This document shows, piece after piece, positions 3,102 through 37,692 of a DNA stretch of 37,978 nt. Numbering within the stretch: the stretch's first letter is position 1; each line of letters opens with the position of its first letter. Source of the DNA: Acidobacteriota bacterium (GTDB taxonomy: Bacteria; Actinomycetota; Acidimicrobiia; Spongiisociales; UBA5794); the NCBI GenBank assembly GCA_022566415.1, contig JADFIY010000004.1, forward strand, positions 1 to 37,978, read 5' to 3'. The position numbers were made by a program, and so were the translations under genes. The notes below the pieces were generated by a model. The model was not told where the DNA came from. It was given only the letters and a program-made list of their open reading frames with translations, and ran no database searches.

Positions 3102-3171
3102 CGTATTACGTATCACGTGCCACGACAACCGAACGGCGCGTTTCGAAATACGTTGTACGTAATACCCGATA
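3102..3171. repeat. Paired heptanucleotide arrays, CGTAATA-type
   Basis: Two arrays of 7-bp units face each other. Units at 3102, 3109, 3116 and 3123 read CGTATTA, CGTATCA, CGTGCCA, CGACAAC. Units at 3144, 3151, 3158 and 3165 read CGAAATA, CGTTGTA, CGTAATA, CCCGATA. GTATTACGTA (3103-3112) is the reverse complement of 3156-3165, so the pair could form a stem around a 43-base loop. The second array starts 12 bases after the stop of the 33-residue ORF at 3183. Confidence 0.75.
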
Positions 3172-3182
3172 CTGGTTGGGCG

Positions 3183-3284
3183 CTAGCCCAACGCCGGCAC
3201 AATCGCCACCGCCAGCGACAACACCATCATCAGCACGATCACCCAGATGAGCACTTTCACCATCGTCTGGCGGTTGCGGAACAT
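3183..3284 (-). CDS. 33-residue single-span membrane protein
   Basis: This ORF begins ATGTTCCGC at 3284 and ends TAG at 3183. The product is a short basic N-terminus (MFRNRQTMVK) followed by one long hydrophobic stretch (about residues 9-31) and no further domain, the plan of a small inner-membrane anchor peptide such as Prli42-type proteins. Its ATG shares one base with the TGA of the upstream gene (TGATG), which implies translational coupling and argues that it is real. It is the last member of a chain of tiny genes after the OmpA-like gene, and is followed by heptamer repeats and a terminator. No function is recognised. Confidence 0.6.
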   Translation of the reverse strand: MFRNRQTMVKVLIWVIVLMMVLSLAVAIVPALG

Positions 3285-3565
3285 CAGGATTCTGACGCTG
3301 GGATCTCGAACTCGCCGACCACCGCGCCGCGCTGGATCACCCGGATGCCGATGGACTGACCAGCCTCTATCTCGGCTGAATAGATCAGGCGCCTCTGTGG
3401 TCTGCGGCCGCGTCCTATCCCTATTAGCAATAGGCCGAGTCCGAGGGCTGCCCGCCTGTTATCTCCCCGCCTCGAGCCGTCGACCATGGTGTCGAAGCCA
3501 ACCTGGGCCCACGGGTGGAAGCGGTTTGCCCACCAGCGATCGATGAGGGCGACTAACAGTTTCAT
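3284..3565 (-). CDS. Small hypothetical protein (93 aa)
   Basis: I take the start as the ATG at 3565, whose ATGA overlaps the stop of the upstream gene; the longer reading of the frame runs back through that gene. The N-terminal 30 residues are amphipathic and Trp-rich (MKLLVALIDRWWANRF). A short hydrophobic segment with small residues follows (about 41-50), then a basic patch (RGRRPQRR) and a hydrophilic C-terminal half (IYSAEIEAGQSIGIRVI). No family is recognised. It is flanked on both sides by coupled membrane genes, so a membrane-associated role is likely but inferred. Confidence 0.6.
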   Translation of the reverse strand: MKLLVALIDRWWANRFHPWAQVGFDTMVDGSRRGDNRRAALGLGLLLIGIGRGRRPQRRLIYSAEIEAGQSIGIRVIQRGAVVGEFEIPASES

Positions 3566-3759
3566 GGCTGGGTATAGATCTCGACCGTGATCTTCTGGGT
3601 GCGGGATCGATAGATCCTCCAGCTGACGAAGACTGCTGTTGCCAGTACCAGGCCGCCGATGATCCAACGCGAAGCGCCCGTTACGGTGATGTCGACCACG
3701 TCCTCGATTTCGCGGAGCTTGCCTTCGAGGTCGTCGCGAGTGATGGTGTTCGGTGTCAT
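3562..3759 (-). CDS. Small single-span membrane protein (65 aa)
   Basis: The start ATG at 3759 overlaps the TGA of the holin-like gene (ATGA), and its own stop overlaps the next start in the same way. Residues 1-26 are charged and probably helical (DDLEGKLREIEDVVDI), about 29-45 form one transmembrane segment, and a basic loop and short tail follow. The layout (acidic amphipathic helix, one span, Arg-rich flank) resembles the small DUF3618-type partners that often accompany actinobacterial holin-like proteins, but I cannot assign that family from sequence alone. Confidence 0.65.
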   Translation of the reverse strand: MTPNTITRDDLEGKLREIEDVVDITVTGASRWIIGGLVLATAVFVSWRIYRSRTQKITVEIYTQP

Positions 3760-4064
3760 CCACTCTCCTCTGCGGGCTTTGGTCCGAGCTGGTAGAGCAC
3801 CGCTCCAAGCGCAGCGAGCCCGATCACGGCAAGCAAATACCCAAGCGCTTCCCAATATGGGGTGTCGGGGAGGGTGTCGACGATCGCCCGCATCCCGGCT
3901 ACGGCCAGCAGGATGATGGCGAACGCCCAGACGAGCGCCGCCCCGAGTGAGAACCCGCCGAGCCTGCGCAGCTCCTCGGCCCGCTCAACCGTCTCCTGAC
4001 GCAGGTAGGCGCTAGCCAGCTCCTTGAATTCGGTGAGCAGGGCAGGCAATTGTTGGAGACTCAT
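3756..4064 (-). CDS. Holin-X/phage-holin-III-like membrane protein
   Basis: The start is the ATG at 4064, with GGAGG seven bases upstream; the longer upstream reading lacks a ribosome site. The 102-residue product has an N-terminal charged helix (LLTEFKELASAYLRQETVERAEELRR split over residues 9-35), then two membrane spans (about 40-58 and 73-93) with a short extracytoplasmic loop. This is the layout of the actinobacterial Holin-X/superfamily III group of chromosomal membrane proteins, which are usually not phage lysis genes. It heads a set of three overlapping small genes. Function is unknown. Confidence 0.75.
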   Translation of the reverse strand: MSLQQLPALLTEFKELASAYLRQETVERAEELRRLGGFSLGAALVWAFAIILLAVAGMRAIVDTLPDTPYWEALGYLLAVIGLAALGAVLYQLGPKPAEESG

Positions 4065-4134
4065 CAATCCTCCGGCGGATGCGGACATCCAGCGTAGCCG
4101 ACCACGCCGACGCTCAGGTCCGGTCGGATCCCTT

Positions 4135-4257
4135 CTAGAAGCGTCTCTTGCGAGCGGTACGCATGCCCCGGCGACCGCGAATGAGCCACCCGACCGCAAA
4201 CCCGAAAGCGGTAGCGATCAAGATCCACAACACGATCTGGGAGCCGACGTACAGCAA
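4135..4257 (-). CDS. 40-residue membrane protein with basic tail
   Basis: The proposed start is TTG at 4257, one base after the stop of the OmpA-like gene, with GGAGGGG five bases upstream inside the end of that gene. The product has one membrane span (about residues 4-24) and a tail with nine Arg/Lys among the last fifteen residues (RGRRGMRTARKRRF). The ribosome site, the tight spacing and the clean anchor-plus-basic-tail design support a real micro-protein. The start codon is not certain; a CTG directly after the TTG would remove one residue. Confidence 0.5.
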   Translation of the reverse strand: MLYVGSQIVLWILIATAFGFAVGWLIRGRRGMRTARKRRF

Positions 4258-4258
4258 A

Positions 4259-5500
4259 TTACCCCTCCTGAGGGATGAACTCGATCCTACGGTTCTGTTC
4301 AGCCGTTGCCGTCGGCGACACCGGTTGCGTATCACCGTAACCGACAACGATGAAGCGGTCGGGAGACTCACCCTGGGTTACGAAGTAGTCGAGAACCGCC
4401 TGGGCGCGCCTCTCCGACAAGTCGAGATTGTGTTCCGGGGTGCCTGAAACATCGGCGTGACCTGCGATCTCGACGGCGACATGTGGGAGCTCGAGCAAAG
4501 ACAACAGGATCTCGTCGAGCAGCGTCTTCCCTTCATCGGTGAGGTCGGCCCGGTTCAGTTCGAATTCGACGACCTTGTCGCCGATGAGCTCGGTCAGCGT
4601 CTGGGTGAGCTCCTCGACCTCCTCTGCGGTAGCAACAGGGACGTCTGGGGGCAGGATGAGGCCCGGGATCACCTGGAACCCGTCGGCTTCCAGGGCAAGC
4701 GTGGCCGCCTCGCCGTCGTCGGTGATTTCTCGTTTCTCCTGTCGGGTCTCAACCTCACCCGAGGTGAGCACGACCTTCCCGGAGGGGTTGATGATGAGTT
4801 CCCCTTCGTCGAGGCCGGCGGCGAGCGAACGGAGTAGCGCCACCGCGTTCCCGATCCAGTCGGTCTCGTCCGCAAGGCCCTCGATCCGGGCGAGGTCTTC
4901 GATGACGGCAACATCGGATGCGTCTACTGAACTGAACAGTGCCTGCTCCTCTTCATCGACGAAACCTGCCGGCTCCGTCTCGAGGTAGGTTTGGATGGCC
5001 TCTGTCGACACGTCACCGCTGATGGTGAGAGTGCCGTTGGCCCAGGCAAAGGTCATCACCCGGCCGCTCACTGCGATCGTGTCGATATCCGACACGTCGA
5101 CGATAAACAGAGCGGCCGTGTCGATGTTCCCAACCCCGTTGACGGCGGCGACCGCCGCCGTGGCATCGTCTCCCGACTGCGTTTCGCGGTAATAGCCTTG
5201 CAGCGTGACGTCGAAACCAGTCACGGCGGTCGTGATGTCCTGGAACCCGGCGATGCGAAGGGCTCGTTCGGTCCGCGCCTCCAGATCTCCCTCGATCGCC
5301 CTCGTCCCGAAGAAGGCTGCCGCCACCGCGATGAGGAGGAAGATCATCACGGTCCCGGCAGCGAAGGCAAACCGGGAGACGACCTGATCTTCCTCACCAG
5401 GTGGTCCGAACGAGGGCGGGCGATCTCCGGACCTATTTCCCGTGGTCCTGCCCCGATCCGTATTCAGCTGTTGGAGTCGCTTTGTCGTCGATCTCGACAT
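4259..5500 (-). CDS. Envelope protein with BON-like and C-terminal OmpA domains
   Basis: The 413-residue protein has a basic, Pro-rich cytoplasmic N-terminus (1-40), one membrane span (about 42-64), BON-like alpha/beta segments (about 68-240) and a C-terminal OmpA peptidoglycan-binding domain (about 306-411, with AGHADVSGTPEHN, LSERRAQAV and EQNRRIEF). This is the architecture of Mycobacterium ArfA (Rv0899). It would tether the membrane to peptidoglycan. ArfA is also followed by small membrane-protein genes, so the five small ORFs downstream may be functional partners; that link is inference. The ATG at 5500 is the only start that keeps the N-terminal cytoplasmic segment. Confidence 0.85.
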   Translation of the reverse strand: MSRSTTKRLQQLNTDRGRTTGNRSGDRPPSFGPPGEEDQVVSRFAFAAGTVMIFLLIAVAAAFFGTRAIEGDLEARTERALRIAGFQDITTAVTGFDVTLQGYYRETQSGDDATAAVAAVNGVGNIDTAALFIVDVSDIDTIAVSGRVMTFAWANGTLTISGDVSTEAIQTYLETEPAGFVDEEEQALFSSVDASDVAVIEDLARIEGLADETDWIGNAVALLRSLAAGLDEGELIINPSGKVVLTSGEVETRQEKREITDDGEAATLALEADGFQVIPGLILPPDVPVATAEEVEELTQTLTELIGDKVVEFELNRADLTDEGKTLLDEILLSLLELPHVAVEIAGHADVSGTPEHNLDLSERRAQAVLDYFVTQGESPDRFIVVGYGDTQPVSPTATAEQNRRIEFIPQEG

Positions 5501-5621
5501 CGAACATGCCTCCGAGCGTACTGCTTTAGGTATCGGCAGTCTCGCCGCGCCGATATACCATTAATCGATAGGACGATCGGCTGCCGTGTTGAGGTTCCCG
5601 CCTGGGCGCGCACCAATAGAT

Positions 5622-5649
5622 GACCGGATCGCGCACTATTTGCGGAGCC
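5622..5649 (-). repeat. 28-bp element shared with the 70-bp repeat at 8609-8779
   Basis: Read on the minus strand the segment starts GGCTCCGCAAAT and matches the first 28 bases of the copy at 8608 with four differences. It lies two bases after the stop codon of the coiled-coil gene ending at 5652. Confidence 0.6.
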
Positions 5650-5651
5650 TC

Positions 5652-5954
5652 TTACTGGTCGAAGAGTCGGCGGATGGCGTCGTGATCGCGCAAGGCGTTG
5701 GTCATCATGTCGTCGGTCGCTTCCTTCAAGGCCCGCAGCCGGCTCGACAGCAACTCGAACTCGTCGCGAACCTCGGTGAGGCGTCGCACAGAACGATTCC
5801 GCTCCGCCTCGTAAACCTGAGAGGCACGCTGCTCGGCGTCACCGATGATCTTGTCGGCCTCGGCCTGGGCTATGGCAATGATCCGGCGCGCTTCGATCGT
5901 CGCACCCTCGGCACCGAGCGTTTCGCCCGGCACCGGTGATGACAGCAGTCTCAT
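5652..5954 (-). CDS. Coiled-coil hypothetical protein (100 aa)
   Basis: An AAGGAAGG ribosome site lies about seven bases before the ATG at 5954. The product is almost entirely helical. After 18 variable residues it runs as one Ala/Glu/Arg-rich amphipathic helix (about 20-95) with heptad spacing (ARRIIAIAQAEADKIIGDAE, then VRRLTEVRDEFELLSSRLRA). The pattern is that of short DivIVA-like or ATP synthase b-like coiled coils, but no N-terminal DivIVA motif is visible. It sits upstream of the OmpA-like gene with a 151-base gap. Function unknown. Confidence 0.7.
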   Translation of the reverse strand: MRLLSSPVPGETLGAEGATIEARRIIAIAQAEADKIIGDAEQRASQVYEAERNRSVRRLTEVRDEFELLSSRLRALKEATDDMMTNALRDHDAIRRLFDQ

Positions 5955-6098
5955 GCGTCATCCTTCCTTTGCGTTACCCTCCGATCCTCTCTCAGCCGTG
6001 ACACCAGTGTATGACGACTGCGCTGCGCGGTCAATAGGAGCTTTTTCGCCACTCTCTGCGCGCGCGGGCCCGTCGGAGGTGCGGTCTACGATGATTCG

Positions 6099-6773
6099 GT
6101 GACCTCGCTGGCCCAACTCGGTACCGGAGACTGCGAGGCGATTCACCAGGAGTGGCTCAAGCAACCGGTGAACGCTTGGTCCAGTCTGGCGTTTGCCGTC
6201 GTCGGTCTCGCCGTCTTGGCGAGCGCCCGGTCGGCGAGCGGGGCCGATCGAACCAATCGTGTGGTGTTTGGCTTGCTGCTGAGCGCAACAGGGATCGGCA
6301 GCTTTCTGTTTCACGGGCCGCAGCCGGATACCGCTCATTTTCTCCACGACCTCACGCTCGTGGCCGCCCTCTGGTTCCTGGTGGTCGTCAATACGGCTGG
6401 GGCGTTTTCCGCTAACCGACAGACAGCGGCCGCGGTCTTCCTCGGAGGCGTTGCCGTCCTCGCTCTCGGCCTGCTCATCAGCCCAGGGATCAGCAATGCG
6501 CTTGTCGGCATCGTCATCATTCTGCTGATCGCTTCGAATGTCGTCACGTGGACGCATACCGGACCGATCCGCTTGTGGCATGCCATGGCCATTGGAGTGC
6601 TGATCGCCGCCGTCGCCCTCAACCTGGCCGGACGGACCGACTCTCCCTGGTGTGACCCGAGCACCCTGCTCCAGGCACATGCAGGGTGGCATGTGCTCGC
6701 CGCGGTCTTCCTCGGGCTCTATTTCATGGCAAGCGCTTCGACGAGGAGCGGGATCGGAGTGGGGATGTCGTGA
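6099..6773 (+). CDS. CREST-superfamily membrane hydrolase, alkaline-ceramidase-like
   Basis: The start is GTG at 6099; the ATG at 6091 closes after three codons. About seven membrane spans are seen in 224 residues. The conserved CREST/ceramidase residues are all present in order: Cys-Glu at 12-13 (GDCE), QPVNAWSSLAF (22-32), Ser68 and His72 in GSFLFHG, Asp84 in FLHD, Trp184-Cys185 in SPWCDP, and His194 and His198 in HAGWH. In this superfamily the three His and one Asp bind zinc and the Ser helps catalysis. The natural substrate in a bacterium without known sphingolipids is unclear. The 3' end overlaps the next gene by GTGA, so they are coupled. Confidence 0.75.
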   Translation: MTSLAQLGTGDCEAIHQEWLKQPVNAWSSLAFAVVGLAVLASARSASGADRTNRVVFGLLLSATGIGSFLFHGPQPDTAHFLHDLTLVAALWFLVVVNTAGAFSANRQTAAAVFLGGVAVLALGLLISPGISNALVGIVIILLIASNVVTWTHTGPIRLWHAMAIGVLIAAVALNLAGRTDSPWCDPSTLLQAHAGWHVLAAVFLGLYFMASASTRSGIGVGMS

Positions 6774-7723: not shown

Positions 7724-7744
7724 CGTAATACGTGATACGTAATA
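7724..7744. repeat. Heptanucleotide array, CGTAATA type (3 units)
   Basis: Units CGTAATA, CGTGATA, CGTAATA start at 7724, 7731 and 7738, nine bases after the stop of the ammonia-lyase gene, in the 53-base gap between two convergent genes. Confidence 0.75.
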
Positions 7745-7767
7745 CGGCTTCGGTTTCGGATACCGAG

Positions 7768-8562: not shown

Positions 8563-8608
8563 GTCACCCCTTGAGACTGGACGGCGCCGCAGTGTAGGAG
8601 CACCAGAG

Positions 8609-8779
8609 GCTCCGCAAATGGCGCGCGACCAGGTCTTTGTTGGCAAGGCCATTGGCGGAGCCGTGGCCCGAGCGGCCCGCCGCGAAGCGGCAAGAGCGGG
8701 GAACATCGCGCTCCGCAAATAGGACGCGACCAGGTCTTTGTCGGCAAGGCCATTGGCGGAGCCGTGGCCCGAGCGGCCC
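8609..8779. repeat. Direct repeat, two 70-bp copies 101 bp apart
   Basis: Copies lie at 8609-8678 and 8710-8779. Both begin GCTCCGCAAAT and end GAGCGGCCC, with only a few differences. Each contains an inverted pair, GGCTCCGC-like at the start and GGCGGAGCC in the middle (8654-8662 in copy 1). After each copy a diverged AAGAGCGGG follows. The repeats fill most of the 285-base gap between the lipoprotein start and the thiI stop. ORFs drawn across them have no ribosome site. Confidence 0.9.
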
Positions 8780-8847
8780 ATAGCCAAGAGCGGGAAAAAA
8801 CGCTCCACTTCTGTCGAAATGACCGGTAACCGATCGCGGCGGGCGGT

Positions 8848-10014
8848 CTACAGAGCGCCTGGCATCCAGTCGCTGAGCTGGAAGGTCTTTCTGGTGGTCA
8901 CTGCGTGCTCCATCAGCTCGTCTGGGACCTCGGCAACCGATCTGGCAACGGACGCTTCGCCGGCGCCGGTGGCAACGGGCTGCCCCTCCGACAGATCGCA
9001 CACCTCCCTGGCCCGAGCCGAGATCTCAGCGGTTCCGATCGCCCTTGCCTGGGCGATGATGGCCTCTTTCGGCATCCCGAGGAGCGGCCTGAGCAGCGGT
9101 GTCGACGTCTGGTTGGACACCGCGACCAGGTGCGGCAGCGTCTGGCTGGAGACCTGTCCAAGGGCATCGCCGGTGACGAGCGCCTGAATGTCTCGCTCCT
9201 CGGCGATCGTCGACGCTGCCCGAGCCATGAGGACCTTCAGCGCAACCTGCCGCATTCGCGGCTTGACGTGGCCGATGAGGCCATCCTTCACCGGCTCGAA
9301 GTCGACGAGGTGCACGGCGGGGTCGGTGCCGTAGCCCCATCGCTCCCACATCAATCGAGCAACCGCCAGCGCGTGATCCGATTGGGCACAGTTCAGCGAG
9401 AAGTGGACATACTCGACCGGGCAGCCGCGAGACATCATCATCCATGCGGCGACGATCGAGTCGAATCCCCCGGAGACCAGGCTGAGCACCGGCCCCTGAC
9501 TGCCTATGGGTAGACCGCCGGCACCCTTGCGATGTTCGGCTATGAGAAATGCCCGGTCGTCGAGAACGGTGACGTTGACCCATTCGTCCGGGTCGTCCAG
9601 GTAGACCGTTCCGCCCGCCTCGACCAACAACGTCCCTGTGCGTGAGGCCAGGTCGTACGACCGCCATTCGTGCAAACCACGCCGCTTGACCCGCACCCCG
9701 AACGTCTTGCCTCGCACTCGGTCCGCCGACCGCGCCGCGATTGCCGCGGCCAGTGCGTCGAGGTCTTCAGCAGGCACCTCTTCGACGGTGTCGATCGACG
9801 CAGTCCCGAAGACCCTGGTGGCAGCGTCGACGACCGCATCGATGTTCCCATCGGGAAAGATAGCGAACCGATGCGAGCCGAGGCGCTCGACGGGCCCTTC
9901 ATACCCGACGCTGCCCAAGGCCTCGGTCAGGTTGGCGACGACGCGCTTGATCATCCGCGGCTGGGTGCGGCGGGATTTGAGAAATATGTCCCCGGACAGG
10001 GTGATATGGATCAT
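8848..10014 (-). CDS. thiI: ThiI, tRNA 4-thiouridine synthetase (short form)
   Basis: ThiI adenylates U8 of tRNA and transfers sulfur to it, and in some bacteria also supplies sulfur for the thiazole of thiamine. The 388-residue product has an N-terminal ferredoxin-like/THUMP region (about 1-165) and the PP-loop domain with SGGFDS at 181-186 and TGDALGQVSSQTL further on. It lacks the C-terminal rhodanese domain of E. coli ThiI, as in many Gram-positive forms. I prefer the ATG at 10014 because it aligns with the family N-terminus (MIHITLSGDIFLKS); an in-frame TTG at 10035 would add seven residues. Neither has a clear ribosome site. It follows the Rieske-ThDP gene by 89 bases. Confidence 0.9.
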   Translation of the reverse strand: MIHITLSGDIFLKSRRTQPRMIKRVVANLTEALGSVGYEGPVERLGSHRFAIFPDGNIDAVVDAATRVFGTASIDTVEEVPAEDLDALAAAIAARSADRVRGKTFGVRVKRRGLHEWRSYDLASRTGTLLVEAGGTVYLDDPDEWVNVTVLDDRAFLIAEHRKGAGGLPIGSQGPVLSLVSGGFDSIVAAWMMMSRGCPVEYVHFSLNCAQSDHALAVARLMWERWGYGTDPAVHLVDFEPVKDGLIGHVKPRMRQVALKVLMARAASTIAEERDIQALVTGDALGQVSSQTLPHLVAVSNQTSTPLLRPLLGMPKEAIIAQARAIGTAEISARAREVCDLSEGQPVATGAGEASVARSVAEVPDELMEHAVTTRKTFQLSDWMPGAL

Positions 10015-12582: not shown

Positions 12583-13863
12583 ATGGGACAGCCGATCTTG
12601 GTTCAACGCCGTGTCCAGGGCGACATCGCCATGTTCAGTGGCGATCGGTCGCTCACCGGACAAGATGGCGCCAGGTACTTCGCGGCAGACGGGGTGCCAG
12701 ACAACGGGAAGCTGTCGGCCGCCGTCGCCAAGGAGTTCTTCGACCTCGACCCCGAAATCGACTATGTCTATGTGGCCTACAACCACGTCATGGCGAGACG
12801 GGCCGGCGGGTGGGATGAAGACTTGCTTGAGGCTGCCGACGAAGCCCTCAACAGGTTTTTTGTGTTTTACGATGGAGAGATCGACGTACCGATCGGTGGC
12901 GCCGGATCCGGGGTAGCGCTGGCACCACCCGGGGCGGTAACGGGCCTGTCCGACGAGACCATGGAGGCGCTGCGGACCGAGCACTACAACGCCACCATCA
13001 GCTACCTGGACGAGGTTCACGAGGACCTGTGGATATTTCGCGTCCGACCGGACGACGGGCCGCTCGCCTACCAGGCGGGGCAGTACACCACACTCGCCCT
13101 GGGGTTTTGGGAGCCGCGCATCGACGAGCTCACCGAGGACCTCGACGATGCACAACGCCGGAAGCTGGCCAGAAGATCGTATTCGGTGAGCAGCTCGATG
13201 CTGGCAGAGAACGGCTCCTTGCTCGACCCAGCGGAGGAGGCCGCAGCCGAGTTTTATGTCGTGTTAGTGAGGAGCGACTCGCAGGGAACCCCAGCGGTGC
13301 TCACCCCTCGCCTGTTTCTCAAGGGTGAGGGTGACCGGCTGTTCATCGGCCGCAAGGCGGCCGGGCGATACCGCCTCGACAGGTTCGACGATCCGACGGC
13401 CGACGTCGTCTTCCTATCGACCGGAACCGGCGAGGCACCCAACAACAGGATGACGCTCGACCTGCTGCGACGGGGCCACCAGGGTCGGATTGTGGGGGTA
13501 TGCACCACTCGCTACTTGCGGGACCTGGCCTACTTGGAGACCCACGGCCGTCTGGCGGAACGATACGACAACTACGAATACATCCCGTTGACGACACGTG
13601 AGCCGGAGAACGAGGGCAACAAGATCTACATTCAAGACCTCATCGAGTCGGCGAAGCTGGAGGAGATGGGATTCGCCCTCGACCCCGAGCGAACCCATGT
13701 CTACCTGTGCGGCAACCCTCTCATGATCGGCCTTCCCGAGTGGGATGGCGACACCCCGACCTATCCCGAGACGCGTGGAGTCGTCGAGATCCTGACCGAA
13801 CGCGGCTTCACCCTGGACCACGGCCGCACCATCGGCAACATCCATATCGAGGAGTATTGGTAA
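12583..13863 (+). CDS. FNR-type flavin/NADP oxidoreductase with N-terminal Nfu_N-like extension
   Basis: The 426-residue product is much longer than ordinary ferredoxin-NADP reductases (about 260). Its last 280 residues are the FNR module, with FAD motif RRSYSVSS (197-204), NADP-binding GTGEAP (281-286), YLCGNP (375-379) and a terminal aromatic residue as in bacterial Fpr. Residues about 10-100 form a separate alpha/beta domain. The order (RSLTG near 22, a helix ending in FFDLDPEIDYVYVAYN, then GGWDEDLLEAADEALNRFF) resembles the N-terminal domain of Nfu/NifU iron-sulfur scaffolds; that assignment is tentative. GAAGGG precedes the ATG. It is divergent from the cupin/Rieske-ThDP pair, so it may supply or take up electrons for that enzyme. 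Confidence 0.85.
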   Translation: MGQPILVQRRVQGDIAMFSGDRSLTGQDGARYFAADGVPDNGKLSAAVAKEFFDLDPEIDYVYVAYNHVMARRAGGWDEDLLEAADEALNRFFVFYDGEIDVPIGGAGSGVALAPPGAVTGLSDETMEALRTEHYNATISYLDEVHEDLWIFRVRPDDGPLAYQAGQYTTLALGFWEPRIDELTEDLDDAQRRKLARRSYSVSSSMLAENGSLLDPAEEAAAEFYVVLVRSDSQGTPAVLTPRLFLKGEGDRLFIGRKAAGRYRLDRFDDPTADVVFLSTGTGEAPNNRMTLDLLRRGHQGRIVGVCTTRYLRDLAYLETHGRLAERYDNYEYIPLTTREPENEGNKIYIQDLIESAKLEEMGFALDPERTHVYLCGNPLMIGLPEWDGDTPTYPETRGVVEILTERGFTLDHGRTIGNIHIEEYW

Positions 13864-13885
13864 GGCTTCGCCTTACCAATACTCC
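13851..13885 (+). terminator. Perfect 16-bp hairpin spanning the FNR-like stop codon
   Basis: The arm 13851-13866 (GGAGTATTGGTAAGGC) is exactly complementary to 13870-13885 around a TTC loop. The stop codon TAA (13861-13863) lies in the stem, so the last three codons are part of it. No T-run follows; instead a heptamer array starts at the last base of the stem. Confidence 0.7.
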
Positions 13886-14034
13886 GTATTACGTATTACG
13901 TACAACGTATTACGACCCAACGGATTCGGCTGCCCGTGCGGTCGGTTTCGTGATACGTAATACGCTCCGTGTACAACGACCGAAGGGATTCGCCCGCCGG
14001 GTGCGCCGCGGTACGTGATACGTAATACGGTCCG
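13885..14034. repeat. Three heptanucleotide arrays, CGTAATA/CGTATTA type
   Basis: Units at 13885, 13892, 13899 and 13906 read CGTATTA, CGTATTA, CGTACAA, CGTATTA. Two inverted arrays (CGTGATA, CGTAATA) start at 13949 and 14014. ATACGTAATACG at 13953-13964 and 14018-14029 is the reverse complement of 13885-13896, so the first arm can pair with either. The last unit (CGGTCCG, 14028-14034) touches the 3' end of the tRNA gene. The 171-base gap holds no other feature. Confidence 0.8.
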
Positions 14035-21053: not shown

Positions 21054-21172
21054 GACCTCGGAGCCTTTCTCAACAAACGACCCGCATACGAAACGGGCCT
21101 GTGGGCGCGAAGTATTGCGTCACACTCGGTGTAGCGCAACTAAATTGCTTCCAGTTTATGGCAGGAACCGAG

Positions 21173-21254
21173 TCGCAAGTCGCAAGTCGCAGGTCCCAAG
21201 TTCGAATTACGCCAACTTCCGTGCAGTTCGGGCTGGCGACTTGCGACTTCTTCT
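21173..21254. repeat. Inverted pair of heptanucleotide arrays, TCGCAAG type
   Basis: Units TCGCAAG, TCGCAAG, TCGCAGG, TCCCAAG start at 21173, 21180, 21187 and 21194. The opposite arm has TGGCGAC, TTGCGAC, TTCTTCT at 21234, 21241 and 21248, running into the gpmA stop codon. 21177-21190 and 21236-21249 are perfectly complementary over 14 bp with a 45-base loop. Confidence 0.85.
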
Positions 21255-22008
21255 ACCCTGCCTCTGCGGCAACCGCCGCCGCGGCAGCCTCGGCTGCGTC
21301 CGGATCTCCGAGATAGACACGTTCGATCGGCCGCAGGTTTGCGTCGAGCCGGTACAACAACGGGATGCCGGTCGGGATGTTGAGTGTCGTGATCTGGTCA
21401 TCCGGGATGCCATCGAGATGTTTGACCAGCGCCCGCAAACTGTTGCCGTGGGCCGCCACCAGGACCCGGCGCATCGCTCGAATGTCAGGGACGATCTGGT
21501 CGTACCAATACGGCAGCAGACGGTCGACGACATCGGAAAGGGATTCGGCCGAAGGTATGGAGTCGGGGGCCATCTCGGCGTAGCGGGGGTCATGAGACGG
21601 GTGGCGCGGATCCTCGGTTTCGAGAGGGGGAGGGGCGAGGTCGTATGAACGTCGCCACGCCTGGACCTGGTCGGCCCCGTGCACCTCGGCCATGCGCCGC
21701 TTGTTCTCACCCTGGAGTGCCCCATAGTGCCGTTCGTTGAGGCGCCAATGCTTGTGGACCGGGATCCAAGCCAGCTCCATGGCAGCGAGCGCAAGCGAGC
21801 CGGTGTCGATGGCACGACGCAGTACCGAGGTGTGCACCACGTCGAATCCAATGCCGGCGGCGGCCATGGTCGCGCCGGCTTCCGTTGCCTCGGCGATTCC
21901 TCGTCTGGAGAGCTCGACGTCGGTCCATCCGGTGAAAACGTTCTCCAGGTTCCACACGCTCTGACCGTGGCGCAGCAGCACGAGGGTGTACTCGGTGGGG
22001 CTACTCAT
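21253..22008 (-). CDS. gpmA: 2,3-bisphosphoglycerate-dependent phosphoglycerate mutase
   Basis: The enzyme interconverts 3- and 2-phosphoglycerate through a phosphohistidine. The 251 residues contain [10 protein letters not shown] (phospho-acceptor His14), [20 protein letters not shown], the proton-donor region [10 protein letters not shown] and the second catalytic His in [13 protein letters not shown]. The start ATG at 22008 overlaps the end of the upstream gene by eight bases; the longer frame is a shadow. The C-terminus is an Ala-rich tail ([12 protein letters not shown]). It is the fourth glycolytic gene of the cluster. Confidence 0.96.
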
Positions 22009-24337: not shown

Positions 24338-24338
24338 C

Positions 24339-27332: not shown

Positions 27333-27554
27333 GGAGACTCGGGACCCGAAGCTTGCAACTCTTCGTCTCCCCCGGCTTTGCGGGGGAGACGCGGCGAAGC
27401 TGATGCTTCGCCGCAGAGGGGGTCCTGGGGCTTCCTAGACCTCATTTCGTGATCAGCGACCTTCCAGAGCCCCCTCTGCGTCGTCGCTGGGCGACTCCGT
27501 GTCTCCCCCACTTCGTGGGAGAGACGAAGACGCTCGCCACTTGCGACTTGCGAC
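27333..27554. repeat. Composite palindromic region between uvrC and rapZ
   Basis: The 236-base gap is packed with structure. Degenerate 7-mers (GGAGACT, CGGGACC, CGAAGCT, TGCAACT) run from 27333. Four stems follow: 27364-27391 (11 bp), 27392-27413 (9 bp), 27412-27480 (11-bp arms CGCAGAGGGGG and complement) and 27501-27525 (11 bp, one mismatch). CTTCGTCTC (27361-27369) also pairs with GAGACGAAG (27521-27529), enclosing the rest. A heptamer array (TCGCCAC, TTGCGAC, TTGCGAC from 27534) abuts the uvrC stop. No ORF is credible. Confidence 0.85.
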
Positions 27555-29381
27555 TCACTCATGAAGTGTCTCCCACAGGGTCTCTGCCACCCTATCCGGA
27601 ACAACCCCGATGAGGTCTTCTTTCGACGCTGCCCTGATTCCCTTGAGTGAGCCGAATTCCCTCACCAGGGCACGCTTGCGGGCTGGCCCGATCCCATCGA
27701 CATCGTCGAGAATCGAGTCGATCATCCGTTTGGTCCTCAGCTTCCTGTGATAGGCGACTGCGAACCGGTGCGCCTCGTCGCGAACCCGCTGCAGCAGGTA
27801 CAACGACTCGCTCCCTCTGGCGATCGTGATCGGCTCGTTCCTCCCCGGCAGGTAGACCTCTTCGAGCCGCTTCGCCAGGCCGACGGCGGGGATGTCGATC
27901 CCGAGCTCGGCGAGCACAGCAACGGCTCTCCCCAGTTGACCGGCACCACCGTCTACAACGACAAGCGACGGCGGGTAGGCGAACTTGCCCCGCTCCTCCA
28001 CGGGCAGCTCCCGATCGATGAGGTACGCGGTGAAGCGACGCCGCAGCGTCTCCTCCATGGCGGCGAAGTCGTCCTGGCCTGCGACCGTCCTGATCCTGAA
28101 GCGCCGGTAGTCCGACTTCTTCGGCAACCCGTCTTCAAAGACGACCATCGAAGCAACCGTGTCCCTCCCCTGGATCGTTGACACGTCGTAACACTCGATT
28201 CTGAGCGGGGGCTTGTCGAGGCCCAGCACGTCCTGTAGGTCGTTGAGTGCCCTCGCCCTTGCGTTGTGGTCCGAATGGCGTCGCAGCCGGTGACGACGGA
28301 ACTCTTCATTGGCATTGTCGATCGCGGTTTGCATGATCCGGCGCTTGGCGCCCCGCTGCGGCACCCGTAGCGAGACCATGGAACCCCTCCGGTCGGTCAG
28401 CCATACCTGCCACATGTCGTCGTCTTCTGGGAGCTCCTGGACGAGCACGGTTGGCGGCGGTCGGTCGGCGCCATAGAGACGTCCGAGCAGGATGCCGACC
28501 AGCCCGGCGGTGGTCACCTCCTCGACCCGGTCGACGACGGTCGTCTTGCGCCCGGTGACGCGGCCGCGACGCACGTTGAGCACCACGAGCACGGCCTCGA
28601 GCTCATCCAACGCCAGACCGACGATATCGAAGTCCTCCTGCCGATCGGTGACGAGCTCCTGTCGCTCCATCGCCTTGCGCACCGCGATGAGCCGATCCCG
28701 TAACCTCCCCGCCTGCTCGTAGTCCTGTGCGTGCGACGCGCGTTCCATCTCCTCGTCGAGCCGGTCGGTCACCGCCGATGTGTCGCCGGCGAGGAAGGAA
28801 GCAAGACCCTCGACATGCTCGGCGTAGGTCGCAGCATCGACCGCACCGACGCACGGCGCCGAGCACTTCTCGATGTGGGCGAGCAGACACGGCCGGCCGG
28901 CCGCTTCATGGCGCCGGTACTTGGCGTCGGAGCAAGTGCGAATGGGAAATGTCCTGAGCAGGAGGTCGAGCGTTTGCCGAATCGAGTATGCGTGCGCGTA
29001 TGGACCGAAGTACACGACCCCCTTGCGTCGCTTTCCGCGCATCACCATCGCCCGCGGCCACTCCTCATCGGCGGTGATCGCCAGATACGGGAAACTCTTG
29101 TCGTCGCGTAGTCGGATGTTGAAGCGAGGCTGATGTTCCTGGACCAGCGAGTACTCGAGCATGATGGCGGCGACGTCGCTCGGGGTGACGATCCATTCCA
29201 GGGAGTCGGCTGCCGTCGTCATCGCCACCGTCTTGAGCGGCAGATCGGCCGCCCAGTAATTGGCGAGCCTCTTTCGCAACGATCGGGCCTTGCCCACGTA
29301 GAGGATCTCGCCGTGTTCATCGCGAAACAGGTACACACCCGGCGTGTCGGGAATCTCGGAAGGCGGTGGGCGGCGAACCAT
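27555..29381 (-). CDS. uvrC: UvrC, excision nuclease subunit C
   Basis: UvrC makes the 3' and 5' incisions in nucleotide excision repair. The 608 residues show the GIY-YIG domain (about 11-90, PDTPGVYLFRDEHGEILYVG), a Cys-containing region (CLLAHIEKCSAPC), the UVR motif (about 200-235, EEMERASHAQDYEQAGRLRD), the RNase H-like nuclease (about 380-540, ECYDVSTIQG, VVDGGAGQLG) and tandem HhH motifs at the end (IDSILDDVDGIGPARKRALV). The start is ATG at 29381; no strong ribosome site is seen. Confidence 0.97.
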   Translation of the reverse strand: MVRRPPPSEIPDTPGVYLFRDEHGEILYVGKARSLRKRLANYWAADLPLKTVAMTTAADSLEWIVTPSDVAAIMLEYSLVQEHQPRFNIRLRDDKSFPYLAITADEEWPRAMVMRGKRRKGVVYFGPYAHAYSIRQTLDLLLRTFPIRTCSDAKYRRHEAAGRPCLLAHIEKCSAPCVGAVDAATYAEHVEGLASFLAGDTSAVTDRLDEEMERASHAQDYEQAGRLRDRLIAVRKAMERQELVTDRQEDFDIVGLALDELEAVLVVLNVRRGRVTGRKTTVVDRVEEVTTAGLVGILLGRLYGADRPPPTVLVQELPEDDDMWQVWLTDRRGSMVSLRVPQRGAKRRIMQTAIDNANEEFRRHRLRRHSDHNARARALNDLQDVLGLDKPPLRIECYDVSTIQGRDTVASMVVFEDGLPKKSDYRRFRIRTVAGQDDFAAMEETLRRRFTAYLIDRELPVEERGKFAYPPSLVVVDGGAGQLGRAVAVLAELGIDIPAVGLAKRLEEVYLPGRNEPITIARGSESLYLLQRVRDEAHRFAVAYHRKLRTKRMIDSILDDVDGIGPARKRALVREFGSLKGIRAASKEDLIGVVPDRVAETLWETLHE

Positions 29382-29427
29382 GTTCTTGATGGTACGTACG
29401 TGAGGCGGGCATTACGGCAGTATGAGA

Positions 29428-29523
29428 GTCGTCAGTCATCAGTCCTCAGTCATCAGCCAGAGACCTCTTGCTGAAGACTGAACACTGTGCACTCTTGTGT
29501 TGCTGAAGGCTGAAGACTGAAGA
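29428..29523. repeat. Heptanucleotide arrays, GTCATCA and CTGAAGA types
   Basis: Units GTCGTCA, GTCATCA, GTCCTCA, GTCATCA start at 29428 and step by 7. A second set, CTGAAGA, CTGAACA, CTGTGCA, starts at 29471. A third, CTGAAGG, CTGAAGA, CTGAAGA, runs 29503-29523 and touches the methyltransferase stop codon (29524-29526). These fill most of the 142-base gap before uvrC. Confidence 0.85.
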
Positions 29524-30228
29524 CTATTTCCGCCATCTGGCGCCGAAGAACCTGGGTATGCCCTCTTGACCGATGTAGCCGGGATCTCTTTCGATGGCAG
29601 CCGCACCCAGCGGTCGCTCCTCGACAGCCTGCAGAGCCCATCCCGCTGTGGCCGCCGCGGTGAGGAGCTTGGCAATCGACCGATGATGGAAAACCACCGA
29701 TCGATCCCCCGCCGGCTGCAAAGACGACCCGTCCTCCAGATAGCTGCCCCAGCGCCACAGGACCTCGCCGTCGACGTCTACTAATGGACCGGAGCCTGGG
29801 GCGGTGAAGCCGGGGTGGTTGATGACCACGATCAACGAGCCGCCGGCCCTGACCACCCGTATCGTCTCGGTGAAGAACTCGCCGGCATCCGCGATCAGGT
29901 CGAGCACGAAAACCGATAGTGCGCTATCGACCGACCCGGCCTGCAGCCACGACAGCCCGGGCAGCTCGGCGCAGACCACCGGTGCCGAGGAGGCGGCGTC
30001 GGTGAGCAGCTGCAACGACCAGTCACACCCGATGGTCTGCACCCCCCTCGTCGACAGCCAGCGAAGCCACTGGCCTTCCCCGCAGCCAAGCTCGACTACC
30101 GTGCCTGGGTCTTTCGGCGTGAGGCGCTCCAGCATCGGTTCGATGTCCTCGCGGTACACGAGGTCGGTGGTCGCCTCCCTGCGCCACCACGGGGCAAGCT
30201 CATCCCAATTGTCAACCGCTATAGCCAT
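29524..30228 (-). CDS. SAM-dependent methyltransferase (class I)
   Basis: I take the ATG at 30228 as start; the longer frame to 30276 would overlap the divergent gene. The 234-residue product has the SAM motif I VVELGCGEGQWLRWLS (about 43-58), an acidic residue after strand 2 (IGCDWS), and later ALSVFVLDLIAD and GGSLIVVINHPGF, matching the Methyltransf_11 layout used by small-molecule or quinone-type methyltransferases. The substrate cannot be inferred. The start-to-start distance to the divergent gene is only 26-38 bases, so their promoters overlap the coding starts. Confidence 0.85.
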   Translation of the reverse strand: MAIAVDNWDELAPWWRREATTDLVYREDIEPMLERLTPKDPGTVVELGCGEGQWLRWLSTRGVQTIGCDWSLQLLTDAASSAPVVCAELPGLSWLQAGSVDSALSVFVLDLIADAGEFFTETIRVVRAGGSLIVVINHPGFTAPGSGPLVDVDGEVLWRWGSYLEDGSSLQPAGDRSVVFHHRSIAKLLTAAATAGWALQAVEERPLGAAAIERDPGYIGQEGIPRFFGARWRK

Positions 30229-30254
30229 GAGACATTTACTCCGAAACTTGTAGC

Positions 30255-31430
30255 GTGAACCCTTCCATGCAAGCACATGCTGGACAGGCGCGGCGCTGGC
30301 CTTTCTGGTTCTTGATCGCGTCGCTTGCCGGGCTCATCATCGGTTTCCTCCCCGCCGCCCTCGGTAATCCGACCGTGTACACCGCCGACCCGCAGTTGTA
30401 CTCCGAAGCGATGGGTCGCATGTTCGGCGGCGAGATCCCGTATTTGGATTTCGACTTCGAGCACGTGCCCGTTGCCATCGCCCCCATGTCGCTGGCGCAC
30501 ATCATCGCTTCCATCACTGGGCTTCCGTTCGGTTACCCGTTCATGATCATCATGCTGGTCATGGTTTTCGTCACCGGCATTCTGGTGGTTCGGATCGGTG
30601 AAGACCTCGGCCTGGGCGATGTCGGCCTCCGCTGGGTGGTGATGGTGGCCCCGATGCTGGTGATCATTCCTCACCGGGTCGACGCGCTTTCGGTGATGCT
30701 GGCCGTGGCGGCGATCTTCTTCGCCGTTCGCCGGAAGGAGGTGGCATCGTTTGGCTCAGCCATCGGAGCAGTCCTTGCCAAGGGCTGGCCGGTGGTTCTT
30801 GCCGCCGTAGATTGGTGGCGAGGAAAGCGCCAGCGCGCCTTCGGGTTGGTGGGCGTCACTGTTGCCATGGGTGTGATTTTGCTGGCCCTGCCTGGGTTCC
30901 GCGCCGGGCGTTCCTTTGTCGGGGTCCATGAGGAGACGGTGAGCGGGACAATCGTCATCGTCTGGCGGCTTCTGGTGGGCACCAACCCGCAGATCATCGA
31001 TTCCGCAGGCGCCGTGTATGTGGGAACCGGTGCCTGGGCGCTGGCCCTCAATCTTGTGGTCGGGTGTGCCATCGGTTTCGCGGCCCTGACGGTGCTGCGC
31101 AGGTCGTTCAGCTGGCAGGGTGCGGTGGCTGTTACCGGGGCCCTGACGTACGCGGTGCTGCTCGCCTCACCGTTGTTGTCGACCCAATTCCTTCTGTGGC
31201 CCATCCCGTTCGTCGCCCTCACCGGGTCACGGCAGGGACGGTGGCTCCTGACCACGGCCGCGGTGATATCGGTGGCCCTGACCGGAATCTGGTTCCCCGG
31301 CGAGCTGTGGTGGCACACCGGGTGGCTGATCCGGAACGTTGTGCTGGTGGCGGCTGCGATTTACGGCGTCCGCGATGCCGTCGCGACGACCTACGAAGCG
31401 AGCACCTCGCGGAGGAACTTGCCGGTGTAG
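30255..31430 (+). CDS. Multi-spanning membrane protein, GT-C glycosyltransferase-like (GT87/DUF2029-like)
   Basis: The frame opens with GTG at 30255 or ATG at 30267. About ten hydrophobic spans are visible in 391 residues. The first extracytoplasmic loop carries [20 protein letters not shown] followed by DFDFEHVP, the acidic-aromatic loop typical of polyprenyl-phosphate-mannose-dependent transferases. This suggests transfer of a sugar to envelope polymer or lipid; the identity of the sugar is unknown. The last 40 bases overlap the 3' end of uvrA on the opposite strand. Confidence 0.75.
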
Positions 31431-34287: not shown

Positions 34288-35487
34288 TCACACGGGTGTA
34301 ACGCCGGGTGGTGCCGAGCTGGTGCTATAGGCTCCGGTGGCCCACACCAACGTCGCCCCGAGCAATGGGAACAACGGGCTCCAGCCCAGCGTCGAGGCCG
34401 CCAGCTGCGTGTACGACAAGACGACGAAGGTGGTCAGCGCGTACCAGCCGGTGGCGGTTTTGCCCTCGATGGCGGCGCCGAATGCCACTAGGCCGAGGGC
34501 TGCGTCGTAATACAACGCCGAGGGAGCGACGATGACAATGACCGGAGCCGCCATCGCCACCGCAACGGTGGTCAGCCCCCGGCGCCACCAGAACACTGCG
34601 GCCACAGCAGCGGCGGCCACGATGCTCAATCCGGCCAGCACGAACGCTTCCGGCTGTCCGAGCAGGTTCTGCCACCAACCCGCGGCCGACACCATCAGGT
34701 CGCCGTTGACCGCGAGATTGACGTCGTTGAACGGGGCTACCTGCTCGAGCCAGTCCTGCACCCAGCCCAAGCCCAGCATGGCGGCTCCGGCCAGGTACAG
34801 GCCCGCCGCCCCAAAGGCCCACCACTTGACGATGCGCCAGCGGCGGGCGACGACCACGAAAACCAGCAGTGACAGTCCGAACTGTGGTTTGTACAACAAG
34901 GCGGACAACGCCAGCCCTGCAGCCAGGTCCCGTTCATCTTCGGCGAAGCGCCAAACAGCCACGATCAACAACAACGTCAACGGCGTGTTTTGCCCTCCCA
35001 ACACCGAGCGCAACATCGGGTAGCTGGCCAGTAGGACGGCAAGTGCTGCGATCTTGCGGTCTGTGCTGGCGAGTAATCGCGGGAGGAGCGGGGCAGCGAG
35101 CTGGATCGCCAACCACAGCGCCACTATCAGCAGGAGCGCATGGACGAGGAACGCCGCCCTGAACGGAAGTACGGAAAGGGCGGCGTAGGGATAGGCGTAG
35201 TAGGGCGGATAGGCGAAGTAGAGAAACCCGGTGTCGTCGCCAAATAGGTCCGCCTGTACCTCCGCCTGTAGTGCGGGGTCGTACAGCCGATCCCCGTCGC
35301 CTCGTGCAACGATGGAACCGGCCCCGTAGAAAGAAGGAAAATCGCCGCCCAGACGCCCGGTCGCGGTTCCGGCACCACTGCCGAAGATGGTGCCGGCAAC
35401 GAGAACCACCAGCACCGCACCCAGGAACGCTCGCGGATACGCCCGTAGGCGAAAAGACCCCGGTGGCGCTGGCTCGGCCTCTGACAT
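34288..35487 (-). CDS. GT87-family membrane mannosyltransferase-like protein
   Basis: The 399-residue product has about eleven spans and the DUF2029/GT87 loop [20 protein letters not shown] followed by RLYDP, with [11 protein letters not shown] after it. GT87 members (for example mycobacterial PimE and AftC relatives) use polyprenyl-phospho-sugars to build lipomannan or arabinan. The gene lies between uvrB and uvrA, an unrelated insertion in the excision-repair pair. It is a second GT-C-type gene within 5 kb of the plus-strand one. Confidence 0.82.
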
Positions 35488-35518
35488 CGGGACTACGGTA
35501 CCCGCAGGGTTCTCCCGG

Positions 35519-37543
35519 TCAGTGCGCCGCTTCGGCGAGGTCGCTCAGCTCACGCTTGAGGTCGTTTACCTCGTCCCTGAGACGCGCCGCGTATTCGAAG
35601 CGAAGGTCTGCGGCGGCCTCGTGCATCTCCTCCTCGAGGCTCTGGATGAGCCTGCGCAAATCGGGCTCTGTGAGGTCGAGCGGCTCCCTCCTCCTCAGCT
35701 CCTGCGCCCGCCGGTCCCCTGCTGGAGCCTGGCGAGTCTGGATCAGCTCGAGGATGTCCGACACCTTCTTCCTGATCGTCTGAGGATCGATGCCGTGCTC
35801 TTCGTTGAACGCAAGCTGGCGCGCCCGCCGCCTGTTGGTTTCATGGAGCGCCCGTTGCATCGATTTGGTCACCTCGTCCGCATACATCACCACCGCCCCA
35901 TCGACGTTTCTCGATGCCCGCCCAATCGTCTGCACCAGGCTGGTCTCGGAGCGGAGGAAGCCCTCTTTGTCCGCATCGAGGATCGCAACCAGCGACACCT
36001 CGGGAAGGTCAAGGCCCTCGCGCAGCAGGTTCACCCCGATCAAGACGTCGTACTCCCCCAGGCGAAGGTCTCTGAGGATCTGCACTCGCTCGAGGGTGTC
36101 GATGTCGCTGTGCAGGTATCGCGCCTTGAGCCCCATCTCCAGCAGGTATTCCGCCAGGTCTTCTGCCATCTTCTTGGTGAGTGTCGTCACCAGAACTCTT
36201 TGATCGGCGATAGCCCGCTCCTGCACCTCGGCAACGAGGTCATCGATCTGACCCTTGGTTGGCCGGACGATGACCTCGGGATCGACCAGCCCGGTCGGGC
36301 GGATGATCTGCTCGACCACGGCTGCTGACTCACGCCGTTCCCAGTCGCTCGGCGTTGCCGACAGCAGAATCGCTTGGTCGGTCTTCTCGTACCACTCCTC
36401 GAAGGTCAGCGGACGGTTGTCTATCGCAGAAGGAAGGCGGAAGCCGTGGGCGACGAGCACGTCCTTTCTGCTTCGATCCGCTGCGTGTTGCCCGTGGATC
36501 TGGGGGATCGTCACATGGCTTTCGTCGATGATCGTGAGGTAGTCGCTCGGAAAGTAGTCGAGCAAGGTGTACGGTGCCTCGCCTGGTTCCCTGCCATCGA
36601 GGAACCGCGAATAGTTCTCAATCCCAGAGCAGAAACCAACCTCGCGCATCATCTCCAGGTCGTAGGCGGTGCGCATGCGAAGCCGCTGGGCCTCGAGATG
36701 CTTGCCTTGGCGCTCCAGCAGTCCGAGCTGGTCGGCGAGCTCGTCTTCGATCCCACCCAGAGCCTTCTCCATTCGCGCCCGCGACGTCACATAGTGACTG
36801 GCCGGGTAGACCCACAGTTCGTTGAGCTCATCGATGACCTCCCCGGTGACCGGGTTCATACGAAGAATGCGTTCAACCTCGTCTCCCCAGTACTCGACCC
36901 TGTAGATCGTCTCCTCGTACGAGGGAAATACCTCGAGGGTGTCGCCCTTGACCCGGAACTTGCCGCGAGTGAGGCTCACTTCGTTTCGCTCGTACTGGAT
37001 GTCGACGAGCCGTTCGATCGCAGCCTGCAGGGGGTATTCAACGCCTGCGACCAACCGCAGTACCTGGCCCTCGTATTGCTCGGGTGACCCCAGCCCATAG
37101 ATAGCCGAGACCGAGGCCACGATGATCACATCTCTTCTGGTGAGCAACGCCGCCGTCGCCGAGTGGCGGAGCCGGTCGATCTCGTCGTTGACCGTCGACT
37201 CCTTCTCTATATAGGTGTCGGTCTGCGCGATGTACGCCTCCGGTTGGTAATAGTCGTAGTAGGACACGAAGTACTCGACGCGGTTCTCGGGGAAGAACTG
37301 GCGGTAATCGTTGGCCAGCTGAGCGCCAAGCGCCTTGTTCGGAGCCAGTATCAGCGTCGGTTTCTGCACCTGCTCGATGGTCCACGCCACCGTGGCTGAT
37401 TTGCCGGAGCCGGTGATTCCGAGAAGCGTCTGGAACCGGTCGCCGCGGCGGATCCCCTCGGTCAGCTTGGCGATGGCCTCTGGCTGATCGCCCGCGGGCT
37501 CGAAGTCGGAATGGACGCGGAAGGGTCGGGTCTCGATTGGCAC
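35519..37543 (-). CDS. uvrB: UvrB, excision nuclease helicase subunit B
   Basis: UvrB verifies damage with its beta-hairpin and recruits UvrC. I choose GTG at 37543, giving 674 residues starting with [20 protein letters not shown] close to the family start; an upstream GTG at 37618 would add 25 residues encoded by heptamer-repeat DNA. Motifs: GITGSGKS (42-49), the hairpin [40 protein letters not shown], and [17 protein letters not shown] with [11 protein letters not shown]. The C-terminal UVR motif ([20 protein letters not shown]) would pair with UvrC. Confidence 0.96.
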
Positions 37544-37584
37544 TGCGGGTTCAAAACTAGCGACGGCGGGCGACAAGTTCTGCT

Positions 37585-37692
37585 GAGTGCCGAGTGGAGG
37601 TCGCCGGTCCCCGGTCACCGGCAGGACACGCAGCGTGAAGACGAACCAATTCGATTCGGGCCGGGGGCCTGGAGGCTGGACACCGGGGGCCT
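37585..37692. repeat. Heptanucleotide arrays upstream of uvrB, GGTCNCC and GAGGCTG types
   Basis: Units GAGTGCC, GAGTGGA, GGTCGCC, GGTCCCC, GGTCACC, GGCAGGA start at 37585 and step by 7. A second set, GGGCCTG, GAGGCTG, GACACCG, GGGGCCT, occupies 37665-37692 and runs into the stop codon of the coaE-like ORF (37691-37693). These fill most of the 147-base gap. Confidence 0.75.

Follow-up and report, generated by a model that had tools for sequence, protein, structure and literature searches.

What keeps a repeat unit at exactly seven base pairs (bp) when the repeated word changes from one site to the next? The question is raised by a 37,978-nucleotide (nt) stretch of DNA, hereafter the window (contig C11, JADFIY010000004.1, of a metagenome-assembled genome (MAG) of 2.57 Mb in 272 contigs, about 92% complete), where short tandem arrays of heptamers lie between genes. 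Repeats of this length have turned up here and there among bacteria for decades, with neither a function nor an explanation of the number seven; the source genome separates unit length from word, holding many words, one length, a prevailing polarity and a fixed core. The arrays change by whole 7-bp units, retain a 4-nt core and retain their place between sister species; they point inward from a gene end in a preferred polarity, and two in one gap face each other despite differing words. Tentatively, and at somewhat less than an even chance, we read them as short evolving tandem heptads at gene-gap borders that a cooperative DNA-binding protein would recognise as a polar border.

In the window, Tandem Repeats Finder (TRF; score threshold 30) gave eight arrays with a base period of 7 (Table 1), the identical eight were returned by a lag scan used as a second, independent method, and all lie inside gene gaps or touch a stop codon. 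Exact lag-7 runs of at least nine matches number four in the window, all within its small non-coding fraction. Genome statistics rest on 435 kb of stretches from the source MAG, with gene starts and coding or intergenic status taken from our own gene caller. Lag-7 arrays there numbered 90 in intergenic and 13 in called coding DNA (several of those 13, located on L043, probably being gaps mistaken for coding sequence), against one to seven intergenic arrays at each of the other lags from 4 to 13, and Markov-shuffled intergenic DNA yielded 1.25 lag-7 arrays versus 89 observed; lags 14 and 21 were raised as harmonics of 7. This excess over other lags and shuffles excludes chance as the source of the arrays. 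The initial annotation of this DNA, which proposed a common generating process tied to the unit length, would have been undone by the lack of a lag-7 excess or by an equal one at other lags or in shuffled DNA, and the counts (90 versus 1-7 and 1.25) give neither. Since the first batch of contigs was largely picked for CGTATTA matches, array density is biased upward; a batch picked regardless of matches held 15 arrays in about 125 kb, which implies some hundreds of arrays per genome. Arrays mostly have 3-5 units (79 of 90; mode 3-4), and the longest seen (L043:1191-1293) has about 15 GACTCNN units with an apparent higher-order pattern of 14/21 bp. The seven loci at which period-7 arrays had been annotated were recovered in six cases and for half of the seventh, where a GAGGCTG array at about 37660-37692 went undetected at the threshold used; nor does an array start at 27333, the only one there being at 27533-27555, beside the uvrC stop.

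The same annotation held that the word changes with the locus, that the words are unrelated, and that they reflect a process rather than the dispersal of one sequence. Several words do exist, but their number was inflated by strand and rotation: CGTAATA is CGTATTA read on the opposite strand, TCGCAAG and ACTTGCG are AGTCGCA by strand or rotation, the arrays at 3102, 7724 and 13885 share one word (CGTATTA or its reverse complement), those at 21171-21201 and 27533-27555 share another (AGTCGCA), and the remaining window words have an AGTC or GGTC core. Words beyond these two in the 435 kb are mostly AGTCNNN, GGTCNCC or AGTTCCC, and most words, with strand and rotation allowed for, consist of a 4-nt core (AGTC or CGTA) and three freer bases; sharing this core and a common polarity, most can hardly be called unrelated. 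Units within an array vary, as had been noted, but not freely, the changes falling mostly in the last three positions. Mismatches of CGTANNN units to their own array's consensus amount to 0, 0, 1, 5, 19, 17 and 13% at positions 1-7 (0/172 at positions 1-2 versus 42/258 at positions 5-7; Fisher p ~1e-10), and those of AGTCNNN units occur mainly at position 5 (19%), a pattern that indicates a fixed 4-nt core followed by a freer triplet. Identical words do recur at many sites, contrary to the claim about dispersal: CGTATTACGTATTACG, representing a CGTATTA pair, has 360 genome matches with up to three mismatches, and its reversed control none. The upstream flanks of same-word arrays share a 9-mer in 1.7% of pairs against 1.05% in background gaps, a level so near background that the arrays alone recur, with no mobile body carried along. 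Similarity between adjacent units exceeds that between distant ones only slightly, a result compatible with slippage but no evidence for it.

How the arrays evolve can be followed in a sister species (genome G001; the source genome is G000), for which 33 gaps are alignable with those of the source, in blocks mostly 93-98% identical. Ten of the 33 hold arrays in the source, and the same ten hold arrays in the sister. Differences are mostly of whole 7-bp units (AGTCATC three versus two, AGTCCCA three versus four); CGTATTA arms are about one unit shorter each in the sister, and one AGTCGCA/AGTGGCA array is about 21 bp longer there. Array 3101-3124 keeps its place, the surrounding 3050-3190 block having diverged; array 7724-7746 has its variant unit displaced by one position; and the uvrC-rapZ gap holds three units in the source versus seven, with shifted words, in the sister. 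The gap at 29382-29523 has had its word replaced, with AGTCATC/AGTCTTC in the source and AGTTCCC in the sister. Exact 7-bp gains and losses, a syntenic gap that kept its arrays while their words changed wholly, and the isolation of lag 7 all bear out the proposed common process tied to a unit length of seven.

Orientation is equally patterned. Of the arrays that lie no more than 40 bp from a gene end, 47 are directed inward, with the gene behind them, and 9 outward (p ~3e-7), or 37 versus 8 when counted by gap (p ~2e-5), the sign between word families depending on the alignment of AGTC with CGTA at GT; the AGTC family alone gives 25 versus 1. The sister genome has 55 inward and 7 outward arrays, a set that, like its pairs, is partly non-independent, some gaps being the same as those of the source. 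Near 3′ ends, 35 arrays are sense and 8 antisense (41 and 7 in the sister), and near 5′ ends 12 of 13 are antisense to the following gene (14 of 14 in the sister). Neighbouring arrays at most 150 bp apart form 20 convergent, 8 tandem and no divergent pairs, with spacers of 1-99 bp, five of the eight tandem pairs sitting in one cluster on L044; the sister genome has 20, 5 and none, respectively. The facing arms often differ and are then non-complementary, AGTCGCA being opposed to AGTTCCC or AGATCCC (three times) and CGTATTA to AGTTCCC. Many arrays begin within the stop codon (TAG/TC or TGA/GTC).

These properties suggest a two-part mechanism. The observed gain and loss of units points to replication slippage or unequal recombination as the likely maker of the copies. 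Core, period and polarity would be kept by selection, each 7-bp unit accommodating a single protomer or dimer of a putative reader that, by analogy with omega/ParB on the heptads of plasmid pSM19035, might assemble cooperatively along 3-5 unspaced units. Its likeliest job would be that of a directional boundary (roadblock, terminator or insulator) halting transcription or other traffic leaving the gene, and a facing pair would seal the gap at either end. Core conservation, polarity in non-complementary pairs and stable positions together argue that the heptads are read; the uneven mismatch over CGTANNN positions is not what freely drifting slippage products would show. A wider proposal, which we regard as distinctly doubtful, is a genome-wide border code in which a reader advancing in 7-bp steps would take several core-sharing words and mark transcription-unit ends in a polar way, words being exchangeable without change of unit length, core or polarity; the system would appear and vanish between congeners, and the cyanobacterial, Xanthomonas and Beggiatoaceae repeats would be independent expansions of like kind.

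Several points weigh against a reader of polar borders. The CGTA family alone gives 11 inward and 5 outward arrays, which is not significant, and the polarity sign between families depends on GT as the anchor by which AGTC and CGTA are aligned. Gaps with a 3′ end differ little from divergent gaps (p = 0.27 by gap count), and gene starts rest on our own caller. A single reader is hard to square with the exchange of words at one syntenic gap or with a genome that has up to ten of them. Nor did any reader gene come to light; a search for the Omega_Repress family, lacking a working positive control and hence uninformative, returned no match. The strongest argument against any essential role comes from congeners: a word-agnostic scan found no arrays in 81 kb of G599 versus six in 56 kb of its congener G494, and none in 54 kb of G005 versus four in 82 kb of its congener G592. 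These samples are small, and matches were already known from two of the five contigs of G494; as they stand, congeners without arrays imply that any job of the arrays is dispensable.

Distribution at large is patchy as well. Three consecutive AGTCNNN units occur 299 times in the source genome, 191 in G025, 283 in G494, 132 in G487 and 122 in G592, and not at all in most Actinomycetota genomes sampled. CTGANNN, the reversed control, is an array word itself, with 445 matches in G222 and 265 in G586; the hundreds of CTGANNN heptad matches in other Actinomycetota (G222, G586, G354 and others) form a separate expansion. Because the reversed control is a real word class, AGTCNNN counts underestimate array richness and the background is not clean. 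Relatives also use shifted words: CGCAATA and AGTCTCC in G025, CGTATTT in G021 and CGTAGTA in G004.

A reader might be superfluous if the arrays were neutral heptamer satellites, made by slippage or unequal recombination that prefers 7-nt steps and surviving where coding sequence and promoters are undisturbed. Such satellites would be expected to gain and lose exact units between sister species and to be patchily present among congeners, as is observed, and an earlier proposal, that 7 nt mirrors the contact of DNA polymerase, offers a reason for the step (PMC4679880; PMC4692102). The mismatch-repair nuclease NucS (PF01939) was, moreover, not found in G000, G001 and G592, incomplete assemblies that all bear arrays, so that its absence may reflect assembly gaps; it is present in all 11 array-poor and in 8 of 11 array-rich genomes (19 in all), and a lack of NucS as the origin of slippage, hinted at by those three genomes, does not hold generally and would be a contributor at most. 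Undirected slippage does not predict uneven conservation along the unit, inward polarity that extends to non-complementary pairs, or recurrence of a word at many unlinked sites without flanking homology, and we judge this explanation somewhat unlikely, with a substantial share of the probability nonetheless. That recurrence might instead reflect mobility, the arrays being the ends of an element akin to a MITE or REP that a transposase, RAYT or reverse transcriptase had dispersed; identical words do stand in many places, and other dispersed elements of about 200-230 bp exist in gene gaps. Matches between sites are nevertheless limited to the array of about 30 bp, to the exclusion of flanks and spacers, array positions are stable between sister species (10/10), and searches in which control genomes were positive returned no Y1 transposase (PF01797; RAYT) in the source genome or its family and no reverse transcriptase (PF00078) in the source genome, an assembly about 92% complete. 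REP/BIME elements mobilised by RAYT were rejected for the absent Y1 transposase, a MITE or other transposable element for the lack of a body or flanks shared beyond the array, and telomerase-like or reverse-transcribed tracts for the missing reverse transcriptase; the same two empty searches leave the 7-nt stepping polymerase or recombinase imagined in the initial annotation without support, and mobility of the arrays themselves we consider very unlikely.

At the level of RNA, facing arrays might pair as a transcript stem and serve as terminators or 3′-end stabilisers, comparable to REP/BIME or to the Nostoc P6b stem, itself made of repeatedly swapped heptad words (PMC4476775). The 130-nt stretches after stop codons fold better than shuffles, with a mean z of −2.2 where arrays are present against −0.76 without, and z falls below −2 in 56% versus 20%. 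Stems of at least 8 bp closely precede 6 of 25 CGTATTA arrays and always stand on the side of the gene, not the opposite one, as compared with a background of 2.6% in random stretches of gap (p ~1e-4), and arrays often start in the stop codon (TAGTC, TGAGTC). In the window, the hairpin CATCGGGC-TTC-GCCCGATG stands at about 3075-3093, just before array 3101-3124; GGTTGGGC-GCTA-GCCCAACG follows the arm at 3150-3164 (stem about 3170-3195), with paired stem changes in the sister; and a long-stem hairpin directly before array 13885-13914 contains the stop codon of the gene ending at 13863. Folding is strongest where the partner array has the same word, and is near z 0 in about 10 of 32 array-bearing untranslated regions, so that a stem is not the common denominator of arrays. 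Many arrays lack a partner, mixed-word pairs are non-complementary and polarity would not matter for a simple stem; a pure hairpin explanation was accordingly rejected for mixed-word pairs and single arrays, and RNA-level 3′ elements seem to us unlikely as a general account. In a relative of this idea, a protein that binds single-stranded nucleic acid over 7 nt, a cold-shock protein for instance, would act on mRNA 3′ ends with the arrays as its sense-strand sites; the sense bias at 3′ ends in both genomes speaks for it, as does CspB, noted to bind heptamer repeats with one protein per heptamer (PMC4679880). An mRNA site has no need of arrays antisense to the following gene at 5′ ends, and the specificity of cold-shock proteins is weak, leaving this version very unlikely.

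Table 1. Heptamer arrays, inverted arms and an associated dispersed element in the window.
Feature	Position	Strand	Detection	Context
CGTATTA-type array, ~3 units	3101-3124	+	TRF, lag scan	
Inverted partner arm ACGTTGTACGTAATAC of array 3101-3124	3150-3164	-		
CGTATTA array, 3 units	7724-7746	-	TRF, lag scan	Between convergent genes (ends 7714, 7768)
CGTATTA array, 4 units	13885-13914	+	TRF, lag scan	
Inverted CGTATTA arm 1	13949-13967	-		
Inverted CGTATTA arm 2	14014-14030	-		
AGTCGCA array, 4 units	21171-21201	+	TRF, lag scan	
Inverted AGTCGCA arm	21237-21250	-		2 bp from stop codon of gene 21253-22008 (-)
Dispersed element	27341-27530	. (unassigned)		Array-to-rapZ interval of uvrC-rapZ gap
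AGTCGCA array, 3 units	27533-27555	-	TRF, lag scan	Abuts stop of uvrC (Pfam)
AGTCATC/AGTCCTC array, 4-5 units	29427-29459	+	TRF, lag scan	
AGTCTTC array, 3 units	29502-29525	-	TRF, lag scan	Overlaps TAG stop
GGTCNCC array, 3 units	37599-37621	+	TRF, lag scan	

The genes around the arrays are ordinary housekeeping genes, with Pfam matches to a proteasomal ATPase, UvrA/B/C, RapZ, PGK and an oligopeptide transporter, and the TAG stop under array 29502-29525 belongs to a methyltransferase gene (29524-30276; Pfam). The UvrC of the window is 97% identical to that of MAG B11T1B8, which was deposited as Acidobacteria and has contig coordinates coinciding with those of the sister genome G001, and 61-73% identical to those of many Acidimicrobiia, which identifies the source organism as an uncultured member of that group (Actinomycetota). 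Its nearest named relative (L118, JACZST010000081.1) was deposited as Acidobacteria, its UvrC groups with Acidimicrobiia, and the label is, from this grouping, probably a mislabelling. The order hairpin, array, spacer, inverted array, hairpin is seen both at 3050-3195 and at L101:2811-2939. The cluster at L044:9827-10192 has seven arrays in which AGTCYTC and GGCCTCC words alternate, most then followed by AGCAAGA; a tail similar to this AGCAAGA also comes after arrays of other gaps and of G025. Two longer dispersed elements also occur in the window. That at 27341-27530 has long stems and similar copies at other sites of the sister genome; it is absent from the sister's equivalent gap and would, by that comparison, be a recent insertion or deletion. 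The other (8604-8850, about 230 bp, between two genes) consists of two similar halves, resembles at least 40 sister-genome sites (mostly at 75-88%) and is also kept at the sister's equivalent place.

Unlike the one-word cases, the present one allows sharp predictions, in that substitutions in core and non-core positions, polarity relative to the direction of transcription, and presence or absence among congeners can each be set against the reading of the arrays as polar borders. Comparing congeneric species that have arrays with those that lack them could lead to whichever gene drives or reads the arrays.

REP/BIME elements of Escherichia coli occupy gene gaps as inverted pairs, for the most part downstream of genes. 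The present arrays share this pairing and location, but come without a RAYT or a conserved palindromic unit and have a period of 7. Closer in unit length are the heptamer repeats GGGAATC of Xanthomonas and GGGGA(C/T)T of Nostoc, to which no function has been assigned (Rehm et al., 2015; PMC4692102). Xanthomonas genomes carry about 185 sets each, mostly of four units, 89-93% of them intergenic, at a mean of 28 nt from the end of the 5′ neighbour, with 70-75 convergent pairs, few sets between divergent genes and lengths that differ between related species (PMC4692102). The present arrays match these repeats in their 7-bp tandem units, well above other periods and intergenic, in their position near the upstream gene's end, in their convergent pairs and in their length variation. 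They differ in that each genome studied there had one word type, whereas the source genome has many core-sharing words, among them AGTCGCA, CGTATTA, AGTCGCG, AGTTCCC and AGTCATC with none in sole dominance, and mixed-word facing pairs; the main words here, unlike those of Xanthomonas and Nostoc, have no G-quadruplex motif, and polarity was tested at both gap ends.

TAACTGA repeats of Beggiatoaceae, Cyanobacteria and Bacteroidetes (MacGregor, 2015; PMC4679880) are likewise intergenic direct heptamer repeats (2-6 copies there), patchy among species, and TAACTGA read on the opposite strand and rotated is AGTTATC, close by sequence comparison to AGTCATC here. They lie just upstream of start codons, with one word dominant in the main genome, whereas the present arrays lie mainly after stop codons, in many words and inverted pairs. 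To the extent that it is cited there, a 2007 survey ranks genomes by their content of 5-11 nt repeats, three of the first ten being Actinobacteria, and finds heptanucleotides the commonest such class in most genomes (PMC4679880); this corrects the initial annotation, which knew of no account of heptanucleotide repeats in Actinomycetota. The P6b stem of the Nostoc tRNA-Leu intron, where NNTGAGT words have repeatedly been replaced by TDNGATT (PMC4476775), resembles the arrays in its 7-nt repeats in two facing arms, its unit gains and losses and its word replacement at one site, with the difference that it is a single intron stem with complementary arms, as opposed to hundreds of gene gaps. Among readers of unspaced 7-bp heptads, the sole well-characterised example that we found in the literature is omega/ParB of pSM19035, a ribbon-helix-helix protein that places one dimer on each unspaced WATCACW heptad and requires four contiguous heptads for full activity (PMC9499535). 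Its parS sites and the present arrays share non-palindromic unspaced heptads in direct and inverted order, several contiguous units to a site; there, however, six plasmid sites over promoters serve partition and regulation, and the words here are AGTCNNN and CGTANNN, not WATCACW. New in the anatomy of the present arrays are the inward polarity and the facing pairs, which occur even with mixed words; the core shared across words, the fixed polarity and the change by whole units between sister species open their function to test.

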